From contig NZ_CP042652.1 of assembly GCF_013177675.1 (NCBI RefSeq), positions 1,488,001 to 1,552,000 of the forward strand: DNA of 64,000 nucleotides. The letters are read 5' to 3'. Origin of the DNA: Arcobacter acticola (GTDB lineage Bacteria; Campylobacterota; Campylobacteria; Campylobacterales; Arcobacteraceae). A program made the translations under genes and the position numbers. The number at the start of each line of letters is the position of its first letter. Positions within the stretch are counted from its first letter, which is position 1. The notes under the pieces are model-generated. The model was not told where the DNA came from and ran no database searches. It saw only the letters and a list, made by a program, of their open reading frames with translations. Positions 31,036 to 36,721 of this stretch are shown here, piece after piece.

Positions 31036-31533
31036 TTATACTCTCTTTGCATTTTTATCTATCCAGTTTATTAATTCCTCTGGATTATTTAAGTCTAATA
31101 TTACTATATTTTCTGGTATTTCATTTTTATCAATAGTTTCATCACATGCTATTGCATCAGTCATACTAAAATAGCTTTCATCTAGTCTATCTCTAAAAAT
31201 TGAAATTCTTGGCAATTCTAAAGTTTTTAAGCCCTCAACTAACAAATAATCGAAGTCTTGAAATAAATCAATCATATCATCTATTGTTGATGTACTTTTT
31301 TTAAATAAAGTTGTTTTATTAGGACTTACCACTGCAACATCAGCACCTGTTTGAGAAAATTTGAAGGAGTCTTTTCCTTCTCTATCAAAAACAGCTTTAT
31401 CCTTTGGATCATGCTTAACAATACAAACTTTAAAACCATTATCTTGTAGTATACTAGCTACTTTTACAATAGCTGTTGTTTTACCACTATTTGAAGGACC
31501 TGAAAAGGCTACTATTAATCTTTTTTTATTCAT
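31036..31533 (-). CDS. mobB: Molybdopterin-guanine dinucleotide biosynthesis adaptor protein
   Basis: MobB is a GTP-binding partner of MobA in making the bis-MGD cofactor of molybdenum and tungsten enzymes. The product has the P-loop GPSNSGKTT near the N-terminus, the KHDPKD motif and LLVEGLK, all typical. The start may be the ATG at 31533 (165 residues) or a TTG at 31551; neither has a clear ribosome-binding site. It is the first gene of mobB, fbp, the Cys-rich gene and metG. Confidence 0.88.
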
Positions 31534-31751
31534 AAGTTGGATTTTATCCAAATGATTGTTAAAATTAATTTACATTAGAGATTTATTTTTTTATCAGCAT
31601 AGAAAGTTACTTTAACAGAATAAAAAAATTTAATTAAGAAATAAAATAAAATAATATATGAAGTGATTATTAATTATTTTAGCAAGTCTCCTAAATTAAC
31701 CTTAAAGCATAGTTAATGTAAAATGCCAACTAATCAAAACTTGGAGAACCA

Positions 31752-32240
31752 ATGCATAAATTTCTACCTCTAATATTAATTTCAATTTTATTTACTTCTT
31801 GTACTTCAAAAAATAGTGCTTTTAAATATTTTGAAAAAAAAGATGATATTGAAACAAAAAGTATTCAATTTACTAAAAAAGCTGACATATTAAAAGCTGA
31901 TGAAGTGGAAACTATTATGTGGGCTACATATTTAAATAAAATTGATAAAAATATTTATAACTTTAAAAAAGAGGTATTTTTAGTTTCTTTATATTTTGCA
32001 AATGTTGAATCTCAAAGTATTAAAACAAATGGCTATAAACTTCTATTAAATGGTAAAGAAGCTAGTTTACTTGAAAAGGTAGAAAAAGATAATGAAAATT
32101 TTAAAAGTTTAATGAATAAAAATAGTTGGGCGAATTATTATTTAGTTAAATTTGATACACAAAATGATAGTTCTAATTTAAGTTTAGAACTATCAAGTGA
32201 AGATTCTAGTAAGAAGGCGACACTAAACTTTGAAAGATAG
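31752..32240 (+). CDS. Putative lipoprotein
   Basis: The 162-residue product starts with a lipoprotein signal peptide (LLPLI-type hydrophobic core, lipobox LFTSC, Cys about residue 17). The mature part has a beta-rich pattern without recognised motifs. TTGGAG lies before the ATG. Its last 35 bases overlap the end of the convergent slt gene. I recall a secreted protein gene in the same place in Campylobacter. Confidence 0.7.
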   Translation: MHKFLPLILISILFTSCTSKNSAFKYFEKKDDIETKSIQFTKKADILKADEVETIMWATYLNKIDKNIYNFKKEVFLVSLYFANVESQSIKTNGYKLLLNGKEASLLEKVEKDNENFKSLMNKNSWANYYLVKFDTQNDSSNLSLELSSEDSSKKATLNFER

Positions 32241-33870
32241 TTGATAAAGAAATTGGATTTTCTTTATTTAAATAGTTATTATAAATATAATAGTTTGCTA
32301 AAACTTTTTTACCATATTCTCTAGTTTCTGCGTAAGAAATCAATTCCATACTTAAAAAAGGTTCATATTTATTTTTTTCTTTAAATAAACCTTTTTTTAG
32401 TTGAGTTCTTGTATATCCCGCACCACCATTATATGCATAGGCAATAAAAAGAGGATTATTATCAAACTGACTCATTAGTGAATCTAAATGAAAACTTCCA
32501 TATCTTATATTAGTTTGGGGAACAAATTGTTCATAGATATTGTAATCTTCTTTAAGTCTTTTTGCAATATCCAAAGATAAAAATGGCATTATTTGCATCA
32601 CACCTTGTGCTGAAGAAAAAGATATTGATGAAGGAATGAATAAACTCTCTTGTCTTGCAATTGAATAAAGTAACACTTGTTTATAAATATCATAATCTTT
32701 TACTATATCTCTAAATGGAGTAATAAAGTATTGAACTTGATATTTGTTATATCTTTGTAAAACAAAAGCATAGTGAGCTAAAGTTGTTTCATCTGTAAAA
32801 AGATTATAATATTTTGATAATTTAGCATCATCAAGATTTTTCTTTGTATCTTCAACAACATCCATCCATTTAAAAGCATCATAAATATCATATGATGTTT
32901 TTTCATTTTTTAAGTCGATGTTATAAACGATATTATCAATTTTCACATCTAATAACTCTTTTGCATATAAAGTATAAATACTAGTATCCCAACTTTTTGA
33001 TAACTCTACTAAAAAAGAGTTGTTTTGAGTAACTAAATACATCCAAAACAAAGTTTTATCTTTATCTACTTTTAAATATGATCTATTATAAGCATTGTAA
33101 AAAAAGTTATATGCACTACTTATATCATTGTTATTTACAGCATTTATTCCTAATGAAAACAATAAATGAGGAGCCAAGGTTTTATCATCTTTTAAAGAGA
33201 TTAGTGATTTCTGTAAATTCTTTAACTTATCATCATGAACAACATATCTTAGAAATCTTTCAAAATCTTTCTCTTTTGAAATTTTATTTATAAATTCAGG
33301 ATTCATAATCTTATTTAAAGTACTAACTCTATAATCACTTCCTGTGTCAAAGAAAATCCTAGAAAATCTGTTTGTATCTGAATTTATTAATGCATTAAAT
33401 GGATCATCAGAAGCAATTACTTCTAAATCATTTTTTAAAGTAGGGTAGGGATCAAGTTTACTAATGAAAAACTTTAAATCTTTTTTTGAAATTTTTGTTG
33501 CTTCACTTAAAGATAAGCCAAGAGCTATACATTTTGAATCTTCTTGTTTTAATTGCTCTATTGAGGCTCTATAACATTTTAAGTCAAGGGGCGCAGTTGT
33601 TTGAAATTTTTTATTAAAAAGTTTTTTTAAAGTTGCATTTCTTCCATTACCCATTTCATAAGCAGTTTTAGCATTTTCAAAAGAGATGTCTTCTTGTTCT
33701 AAATATTGAATAATAAAAAAATCTTTTGCTGATGATTGTGGTTTTTTTTCTAACCAATCAAGAGTAACTTTAAAATCTTTTTGTAAAAAATCTGTAGTGG
33801 CTGAAACATTGCCACTAGCAGATAAATTAAATAAAACAGTACTAACTAAACTAAGTATTATTTTTTTCAT
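32206..33870 (-). CDS. slt: Soluble lytic murein transglycosylase
   Basis: Slt cleaves peptidoglycan glycan strands in the periplasm, leaving anhydro-muramic ends. The 554-residue protein has an N-terminal signal peptide (about residues 1-19), a long helical repeat region (about 20-390) and a C-terminal SLT domain with the catalytic glutamate in ARQESLF, followed by SSAQGVMQIMP and AYNGGAG. The 3' end overlaps the convergent lipoprotein gene. yggT lies 7 bp upstream in the operon. Confidence 0.92.
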   Translation of the reverse strand: MKKIILSLVSTVLFNLSASGNVSATTDFLQKDFKVTLDWLEKKPQSSAKDFFIIQYLEQEDISFENAKTAYEMGNGRNATLKKLFNKKFQTTAPLDLKCYRASIEQLKQEDSKCIALGLSLSEATKISKKDLKFFISKLDPYPTLKNDLEVIASDDPFNALINSDTNRFSRIFFDTGSDYRVSTLNKIMNPEFINKISKEKDFERFLRYVVHDDKLKNLQKSLISLKDDKTLAPHLLFSLGINAVNNNDISSAYNFFYNAYNRSYLKVDKDKTLFWMYLVTQNNSFLVELSKSWDTSIYTLYAKELLDVKIDNIVYNIDLKNEKTSYDIYDAFKWMDVVEDTKKNLDDAKLSKYYNLFTDETTLAHYAFVLQRYNKYQVQYFITPFRDIVKDYDIYKQVLLYSIARQESLFIPSSISFSSAQGVMQIMPFLSLDIAKRLKEDYNIYEQFVPQTNIRYGSFHLDSLMSQFDNNPLFIAYAYNGGAGYTRTQLKKGLFKEKNKYEPFLSMELISYAETREYGKKVLANYYIYNNYLNKENPISLSTIFQSLVSPSY

Positions 33871-33877
33871 AATTCTC

Positions 33878-34150
33878 TTAAAAAGCTAGATTTTTCAAGA
33901 AAGTTTCTAAAAAGATTAAAGCAAAAATTAAAATAATTGGAGCTAAATCCATTCCACCAAAAACTGTAGGAATATATTTTCTAATTAGTGCATAAGCAGG
34001 CTCTGTTAGCCTATAAAGCATTTGAACTATTGGATTATAAGGATCAGGTTTAACCCAAGTTAAAATCGCTGAAATAATAATAACCCATTTATATAAAAAT
34101 ATAACACTTAAAACAACTGTAAATATAGAACTTAATAAGGCATCTATCAT
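33878..34150 (-). CDS. YggT-family membrane protein
   Basis: The 90-residue protein has two membrane segments (about residues 5-30 and 68-88) flanking the family motif [22 protein letters not shown]...RKYIP. Members are linked in other bacteria to membrane-protein assembly or osmotic tolerance; the exact role is uncertain. It overlaps the gltX stop by four bases (ATGA) and precedes slt. Confidence 0.88.
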
Positions 34151-35424
34151 CTTACTATTTCTCCTAAATAATTTTTAATTAATGGATAAATATCTGAAAT
34201 ATTTGGTCCATCATATGTACCTGTTAAAACATATCTTAAAGGCTTAGATAAATCTTTGTTTTTTAAATTTGTTTCTTGCTCAACATATTTTTCTAGTTTT
34301 TCAAAATCTTCAAAGAAGGGTGCTTTTTGTAAACAGTTTTTTATATTATGAAACTCTTTTTCAAAATCTTTACTAGATATTTTTTCTGCAAAAATTGCAG
34401 TAATATTTTCTTTTAACTCTTTTATTGTACTAAATTCATTTAAATATAATTTAGCAAGTTTCCCAATATCATTATCAGCAAATCCAAGTATTTTTGATAG
34501 TCTCATATCATCAATTGTTTCAAGATGTTTTTTATTAATAAATTTTAATTTATCAATATCAAATTTACTAGCTTTCTTTGATATGTTTTCTATTTTAAAC
34601 CATGAAATAGCTTCTTCTAGAGAAAATATTTCTTTTGGTGTTTCGTTTCCTAAAAGAACTAAATAATTTGCAATAGCACTTGGTAAAAAACCTTCGTCAA
34701 TTAGCCATTTTACTGAATTTAGATTTGTTTGTTCATTTATAATACTTGGTAAATGTACATATTTTATCTCTTTTGTATAAGATAAAGAATTTCTAACATG
34801 TATTTGTTTTGCAGTATTTGAAATATGTTTTTCATCCCTAATTACCATAGAAATATCCATAATCATATCATCAATTGCACATGCATAATTATAAGTTGGT
34901 TTTTTCCCTTGATTTAAAATAACAAATGAATCTACTTCTAAAGGAGTATAATCAAAATTGCCTCTTAATAAATCAGTAAATTTAATATTTGATTCTGGTT
35001 TTTTAATTCTAACAGTAAAAGGTGCATTTGTATTTAAAACTGTTTCATCTGATAAAGTTTCACAAAAACCATCATATGCAAAAGGTTTTCCTTCTGCTTG
35101 TGCTTCTTCTTTTAATTCTTCTAATTTATTATCAGAACAAAAACAAGCAAATGCTTTTTTTTGACTCATTAGTTGAAGTGCAATCTTTTGATGATATTTT
35201 AATGAATCACTTTGATGTGCAATATATTTATACTCTATTGAAAAAAGATTTAAGATTTCTATAATCTCTTTATCTTTACCTTCAATGATTTTTTCTGCAT
35301 CAATATCTTCTATTCTAATAACTAAATCTTCATTTAATTGTTTTGATACAATATAATTAAAAATAGCAACCCTTAGGTTACCAATATTCATATCTTCTAT
35401 TGGACTTGGGGCAAATCTTAACAA
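34147..35424 (-). CDS. gltX: Glutamyl-tRNA synthetase-like protein (GluRS2 type) with degenerate active site
   Basis: The 425-residue chain aligns over its whole length with the second glutamyl-tRNA synthetase of Campylobacterota, which charges tRNA-Gln in Helicobacter. RFAPSP, RIED, CAIDDM and [19 protein letters not shown] are kept. However HIGH reads NIGN (residues 13-16), TG before it reads IE, the RGEDH motif reads RDEKH (196-200), and the KMSKR loop expected between LPSII (225-229) and SVKW (237-240) is missing, replaced by NEQTNLN. The frame is intact, with a TTG start after AGGAAATAAT. It may be inactive or have a new role. Confidence 0.82.
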
Positions 35425-35425
35425 A

Positions 35426-36721
35426 TTATTTCCTTACTATTGAGAATGTTAAATTGTTAATTTCATTATGAGATTTTATATAAGAATTTAAATCTTCTAA
35501 TTTTAAATTTTGAATTTTTTCTAACTCTTTTTTAGAATAATCTTGTTCTAAACCTCTATAATACAAAGTGAACGCACTATTTAATCTTTGACTTAATGTT
35601 TCACTTCTTAAAGGTTCACTTCCTGTTAAAAAGTTTTTAGCAGCAGTTAATTCTTCTTGTGTAACACCATCTTTTACAAATTGAGCTACTAATTGTTTTA
35701 CTAAATCTTTAGCTTCATTAGCACTTTCATTTTTTGTTTGTAAATAACCATTAAAATAAGTATGAGATTTATTTATAGAAATAGAACCATAAGCACTATA
35801 TGCTAATCCTCTTTTTACTCTTATTTCTTCCATAAGTCTTGAACCAAAACCTGAACCACCTAAAATAAATGATGCAACTTTTGCTTTGTAATTTTCTTCA
35901 TCTTTTGAATCAGCATTAAATGAGCTTCCAAAATAGATATATGCTTGTTCTGTATCTTTTATTAAAGTTTTTTCATCATTCTTTGATATAAAATTTATTT
36001 TTTGAAATTCATTTTTTTGACCAACTTTTAAAGTTTCTAAAAATGGTTTAATGAATTTTTCAAACTCTTCTTCTTCAAAATCTCCACCTGCAACAATAAT
36101 TAAGTTACTTAATGAAATTGTATTAGTAATAAAATTTTCAATATCTTTTAACTGAATCTTTGAAGTAGTTTCAATAGTTCCAGAAGATGGATTTTCAAGT
36201 GCAGTTCCTGCAAAAAGAACAGATTTTAATTGATTTTGTGCAACATAATCAAAATCATTCTCTTTTCTTTTTAAAGAACCATTTTGAATAGTTTTTAACT
36301 TATCTAAGGTATCTTGTGAAAAATTTGGAGATTTTAAAAGATCTGTTAAAAGGCTAAGACCTTTGTTTGATTGCTCTTTTAAATTTGATAATTCAATAAC
36401 AAAAGTTTCAAATCCATTTGAAGTTGTTAAAGAAATAGCATTTTCTTCTAATTCTTGAGCAAATGCAGTAGCTCCAAGTTCTTTTGTTCCTTCATTTAAA
36501 AGTTTTGAAGATAGACTTACTAAGCCACTTTTGTCTTTATCTTGAATATATCCAGAGTTTTGAAAAACCAATTGTAAATTTAAAATTGGTAAACTTTTCT
36601 GTTCTTCAAAAATTATTGGTACTTGAATACCTTTTACATCAATATGCTTTATAGTAGCACCCATTAAACTCCCTTGTAATATTGCTAATATGATTAAAAA
36701 ATTATTTTTTATTTTAAACAA
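35426..36721 (-). CDS. M16-family peptidase-like protein lacking the zinc motif
   Basis: The 431-residue protein has an N-terminal signal-like segment (about residues 6-21) and two M16 half-domains. Where active members have HxxEH, this chain reads [15 protein letters not shown], so all zinc ligands are missing. The [13 protein letters not shown] motif of the second half is present. Such chains are usually the non-catalytic partner of an active M16 subunit, and no active partner is in this window. The start is a TTG with AAAGG upstream. It follows mqnC by 2 bp. Confidence 0.85.

Follow-up and report, generated by a model that had tools for sequence, protein, structure and literature searches.

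A glutamyl-tRNA synthetase paralogue of Arcobacter acticola with lost catalytic motifs: probable retention of GluRS2 as a non-catalytic protein in GlnRS-bearing Campylobacterota

The stretch of DNA analysed here (the window) covers 64,000 nucleotides of the 3.02-Mb, one-contig genome of Arcobacter acticola, whose close relatives carry Aliarcobacter names. On its reverse strand lies gltX2, a gene for a second glutamyl-tRNA synthetase (GluRS2) that is read from a TTG start codon as an uninterrupted frame, with its ribosome-binding site inside the end of the preceding gene (Table 1). The order gltX2–yggT–LT–fbp is kept at most loci across the order, and the sequence-only reading, which had described a full-length, uninterrupted GluRS paralogue in a conserved operon place, was right about both the gene and its setting. 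Between fbp and the LT gene, and overlapping fbp, there is also a MobB-like frame with the P-loop GPSNSGKTT (31036–31551).

Table 1. Features of the gltX2 locus, in window positions.
Feature	Position	Strand	Remark
LT (lytic transglycosylase-like) gene	32206..33870	-	downstream of gltX2
yggT	33878..34150	-	start codon shares 4 bases (ATGA) with gltX2 stop
gltX2-derived pseudo-synthetase (GluRS2), 425 aa	34147..35424	-	presumed catalytically dead
In-frame deletion junction, 8 residues of KMSKS loop gone	34725..34726	-
RGEDH to RDEKH	34825..34839	-
Putative zinc-site span, retained (Cys94, Cys96, Tyr117, Cys121, window numbering)	35062..35145	-	from conservation
HIGN (HIGH signature) to NIGN	35377..35388	-
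PTG to PIE	35395..35403	-
M16 peptidase-like gene	35426..36721	-	upstream of gltX2; selection control
Shine-Dalgarno AAGGA for gltX2 TTG start	35431..35435	-	from sequence; within end of M16 gene

By family and predicted structure, the protein is a GluRS. It scores 351 bits against the NCBIfam model gltX_bact (TIGR00464; cut-off 289.95) and carries the domains tRNA-synt_1c and Anticodon_2, the latter (residues 316–415) as a weak match of 28.3 bits that is over threshold. A GluQ-RS identity was rejected, as the score against that NCBIfam model (133.6 bits) falls below its cut-off (276.7) and the protein has both the Anticodon_2 match and, in the model, a helical C-terminal domain. The structure predicted from a 53-sequence alignment (mean pLDDT 94, pTM 0.88) matches a GluRS (2cfo_B) over its whole length (Z 35.9, rmsd 3.6, 421 residues aligned) and also the GluRS of the Thermotoga maritima transamidosome (3al0_C; Z 33.0). 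The predicted fold is thus that of an intact GluRS, in agreement with the earlier claim that the fold-defining parts are conserved. Neither the HIGH nor the KMSKS signature of TIGR00464 is present—the first reads NIGN and the second has an 8-residue deletion—and a gene named glutamate--tRNA ligase through a curated model, above cut-off, can evidently lack the catalytic signatures.

Specifically, the intact reference in all 22 GlnRS-less Aliarcobacter genomes reads PTGDMHIGN, RGEDH and GKKMSKRDD[AE]S, and the corresponding stretches in the window protein are PIEDMNIGN, RDEKH and a KMSKS loop minus those 8 residues. Among sites invariant in intact enzymes, 15 of 24 motif sites are changed versus 30 of 260 elsewhere and, as judged from this alignment, the concentration of changes at the motifs is therefore not chance. 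Alignment with these 22 copies bears out the altered HIGH, PTG and RGEDH and the absent KMSKR loop that the sequence-only reading had noticed. It does not bear out the rescue that reading had entertained, in which SKKASKF serves as a functional KMSKS-like loop; SKKASKF pairs with SKSxAKF, a separate element that intact enzymes carry besides KMSKR. The protein is presumed to have no charging activity.

The host genome encodes three tRNA-synt_1c proteins, namely GluRS1, GluRS2 and GlnRS. The GlnRS is complete (753 aa): its HIGH and VMSKR motifs are intact and it has a GatB_Yqey domain at the C-terminus. GatB is present too; the search for another gltX, a glnS and gatCAB that had been proposed from the sequence thus finds GluRS1, GlnRS and GatB, and rules out that GlnRS or GatCAB is missing. 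No AsnRS was found in this genome, nor in any of 80 surveyed (0/80), and GatB occurs in 79 of the same 80. Since these genomes hardly differ in either gene, there is no contrast from which retention of GluRS2 could be explained by a need for GatCAB or AsnRS.

Presence of GlnRS and inactivation of GluRS2 go together. Within the genus, a full GluRS2 frame is present in every one of the 31 genomes; its motifs are intact in the 22 genomes without GlnRS and altered, in varied combinations, in 9 of the 9 with it. The survey was extended to 73 further Arcobacteraceae genomes and 49 from other families of the order, in part drafts that may miss glnS or gltX2, and motif columns were scored in 143 alignable GluRS2 sequences. 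Of 95 genomes that encode full-length GlnRS, 91 have a GluRS2 lacking the KMSKS lysine, as against 1 of the 46 that have no GlnRS (Fisher p 2.5e-24 within Arcobacteraceae, in a test that ignores phylogeny), a breadth that rules out a recent decay confined to one genus. The exceptions are few. Four genomes with GlnRS and an intact GluRS2 (G085, G092, G271, G311) are transitional, and the lone altered copy without GlnRS comes from a genome that is 74% complete (G046), whose GlnRS may simply be missing from the assembly. GluRS2 is intact in both genomes with a fragmentary glnS; one of these fragments (G053:C171:7988-9214) has many stops and is possibly a failed takeover or the result of poor assembly. 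A further genome (G110) has GluRS1 and GatB and neither GlnRS nor a full GluRS2, together with a 289-aa GluRS-like frame (C55:17004-17804); its GluRS1 may be non-discriminating.

Among the 91 copies without the KMSKS lysine (hereafter, dead copies), 83 have also lost RGEDH and HIGH, 7 have also lost RGEDH, and 1 has lost KMSKS only; in most the KMSKS loop is deleted outright. This nesting suggests that KMSKS was lost before RGEDH and RGEDH before HIGH, as a cross-species pattern and not an observed time course. At the HIGH histidine the commonest residue in dead copies is Asn, at only 0.23. The putative zinc-site residues (Cys93, Cys95, Tyr116 and Cys120 in alignment numbering) are conserved at 0.89–0.94 among dead copies, and the three Cys do not vary in the 53-sequence structure alignment either.

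Inactivation has arisen many times. On a tree of the flanking genes yggT, M16 peptidase and LT (89 taxa), with inactivation treated as irreversible, about 17 events are needed in Arcobacteraceae, a count that rests in part on weakly supported nodes and that gene transfer could reduce; the genus's own flanking-gene tree needs 6. Two near relatives (G022 and G023; L043, L042) differ by a dS of 0.48 in GlnRS and about 0.1 in GluRS2 (91.5% and 97% identity, respectively), a divergence that fits horizontal transfer of glnS on several occasions and suggests its separate acquisition or recombination. Members of four families carry glnS at or beside gltX2: in 11 genomes of family f10 it immediately precedes gltX2 on the shared strand, in six genomes of f7 and two of f4 it is a tandem or divergent neighbour of gltX2, and in one genome (G040) it follows just after yggT. 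Such adjacency supports a functional tie and could also reflect the mode of glnS transfer; in most Arcobacteraceae glnS lies away from gltX2, which counts against the reading of GluRS2 as a partner of the GlnRS route developed below.

Dead copies are not pseudogenes but are under strong purifying selection. Pairwise codon models were applied to close pairs with both copies dead, as dS is saturated in deeper pairs, and gave omega of 0.06–0.16 in Arcobacteraceae and 0.11–0.34 in other families (intact pairs, 0.02–0.10); omega = 1 was rejected for every dead pair (likelihood ratio 13–212). The dN/dS check named in the sequence-only reading thus points to purifying selection. In Aliarcobacter pairs, GluRS2 rises from 0.024 (intact) to 0.085 (dead) and flanking genes of the same pairs show no matching rise (dead versus intact genomes: LT, 0.038 vs 0.030; M16, 0.066 vs 0.049; yggT, 0.016 vs 0.031; mqn-like gene, 0.016 vs 0.024; bamA, 0.045 vs 0.037), which rules out lineage-wide relaxed selection. 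Neutral evolution would produce ~91 nonsense hits for each unit of dS, and the chance of zero stops is ~1e-4 at dS 0.1 and ~1e-14 at dS 0.35; in the dead GluRS2 copies stops are absent where dozens would be expected. The window gene accordingly has neither the interrupted frame nor the omega near 1 of a pseudogene, and shows what is expected of a non-catalytic synthetase paralogue (i.e., catalytic motifs lost, remainder under purifying selection).

The distribution of constraint is informative as to what is being kept. By column class, dead copies give values of 0.107 at charged, 0.112 at polar and 0.080 at hydrophobic sites; charged and polar sites thus come close to hydrophobic ones in constraint, which argues against a need for mere foldability. 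By region (boundaries drawn from homology; dead/intact values), relaxation is greatest at the KMSKS loop (0.218/0.020; 11-fold), followed by Rossmann-b (0.115/0.015; 8-fold), the HIGH part (0.103/0.019; 5-fold) and the stem-contact part (0.099/0.023; 4-fold), and is least in the anticodon-binding domain (0.153/0.055; 2.8-fold) and the acceptor insertion (0.089/0.038; 2.3-fold).

We propose that GluRS2 originally produced Glu-tRNA(Gln) as the substrate for amidation by GatCAB and that, once glnS had been gained and GlnRS charged tRNA(Gln) directly, GluRS2 catalysis became dispensable, since a genome with a complete GlnRS no longer needs Glu-tRNA(Gln) from this enzyme. Its ATP-handling elements would then have decayed, in the order suggested by the nesting, and the remainder would have been kept by selection for a second, non-catalytic function that was present already or was gained. 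Strong purifying selection on a dead protein argues for such a role, although by itself it does not identify the ligand. The retained function may be tRNA binding, most likely of tRNA(Gln), through acceptor arm and anticodon, and the pseudo-synthetase may assist or regulate the charging system formed by GlnRS and GatCAB. We consider it probable, with some reserve, that acquisition of glnS has time and again converted GluRS2 into a conserved pseudo-synthetase, which has no catalytic activity and probably binds tRNA(Gln). The more specific form, in which horizontal gain of GlnRS repeatedly made GluRS2 a tRNA-binding partner of the direct route and the second function had always been there, is for us an even call. 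Two alternatives had first been raised from the sequence: that the tRNA-Gln route was lost, or that the protein took on a new role without catalysis. A complete GlnRS and strong purifying selection indicate both, one after the other.

Several observations count against this reading. Five GlnRS-bearing genomes (G147, G196, G205, G290, G331) lack a GluRS2 frame, and gltX2 can thus be lost; in one of them it is cleanly deleted, leaving glnS, 18 bp, yggT and then LT and fbp (G331; L245:6192-8790). In another (G205) the class Ic synthetase profile finds only GlnRS and no GluRS at all, probably owing to an assembly gap, though the assembly is rated 100% complete. Most of the C-terminal domain is gone in two genomes (G161, G302), and residues of the substrate pocket such as Tyr177 and Arg195 stay below 85% conservation in dead copies. 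As a separate observation, frame length varies: one retained frame has an in-frame deletion of ~86 residues (G049), and one dead frame of 523 aa is ~90 residues longer than its relatives (G329; L194:4600).

The main rival to a retained pseudo-synthetase is that gltX2 serves as a translational leader, its frame kept only for coupling to yggT and its product useless, with no demand other than to fold harmlessly. The ATGA overlap, seen in 81 of the 91 loci with a dead copy and 41 of the 50 with an intact one, speaks for it, as does the G331 locus, where glnS occupies the place of gltX2 directly before yggT. Yet a leader needs a frame and not a particular sequence, and omega of ~0.1 with charged and polar sites nearly as constrained as hydrophobic ones is more than it would require; the frame is also retained at loci without the overlap (G161, G228, G301). 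We regard this explanation as unlikely. Somewhat similar in standing, and in our view rather improbable, is a scaffold role, in which dead GluRS2 is a structural partner of the amidotransferase that is still required for Asn-tRNA(Asn). The glutamine transamidosome of T. maritima, whose structure is solved, contains a bacterial GluRS, and the match of the predicted model to that GluRS and the near-universal GatB without AsnRS fit the idea; the five genomes that lost GluRS2, however, retain GatB and are also without AsnRS.

Two further explanations fare worse. Progressive shortening and complete loss now and then are what a slowly decaying pseudogene, so far uninterrupted, would produce, but the minute chance of zero stops and the rejection of omega = 1 in every dead pair refute it, and we give it very little credence. 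That GluRS2 is still active despite its unusual motifs, perhaps with another substrate, would suit the intact fold of the predicted model and the largely conserved Arg2 (window Arg3), Arg36 and Asp39; against this, the KMSKS lysine is gone in 91 of 91 dead copies, usually with the loop, 83 of the 95 GlnRS-bearing relatives have an altered HIGH and four copies begin after it, so that continued activity seems most improbable. If the pseudo-synthetase reading is true, the second function of GluRS2 shows itself only after its catalysis is no longer needed. The lineages studied here then form a replicated natural experiment—an enzymatic job lost many times, with active-site decay in similar order and the protein retained—in which a hidden function can be separated from catalysis and tested.

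Among known systems, the closest is the Helicobacter pylori-type GluRS2 of GlnRS-less Campylobacterota, reported as a tRNA(Gln)-specific GluRS (PMC3927822). The window protein is orthologous to it by sequence (52–77% identity to intact copies) and shares its gltX2–yggT–LT order and its fold; those enzymes keep HIGH, RGEDH and KMSKR, whereas none of the three is left in the window copy, whose genome has GlnRS. The GluRS2 of T. maritima is likewise a second GluRS copy and non-charging by report, being inactive toward both tRNA(Glu) and tRNA(Gln), with an anticodon-binding domain on a gene-duplicated catalytic domain (PMC3927822); compared by description, it resembles the window protein but is not linked to gain of GlnRS. 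HisZ, a synthetase fold kept for a regulatory or accessory role (PMC9734150), and other non-charging synthetase paralogues retain the fold as the window protein does, but HisZ belongs to a different synthetase class, and the conversion of GluRS2 has happened over and over at a single locus. GluQ-RS (YadB) is also a relative of the GluRS catalytic domain, yet it lacks the anticodon-binding domain, while the window protein keeps that domain and has lost the catalytic motifs. We found no earlier report of a dead GluRS2 in Campylobacterota in the open-licence literature. GluRS2 and GlnRS had been noted together in 6 of 10 epsilon-proteobacteria, including Arcobacter nitrofigilis and Sulfurimonas autotrophica, with the suggestion that GlnRS is the non-functional partner (PMC3927822, published in 2014). 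For the genomes studied here the motif and selection data say the opposite, i.e., that the idle partner would be GluRS2 and not GlnRS, and the pattern of dead GluRS2 copies reverses the published guess.
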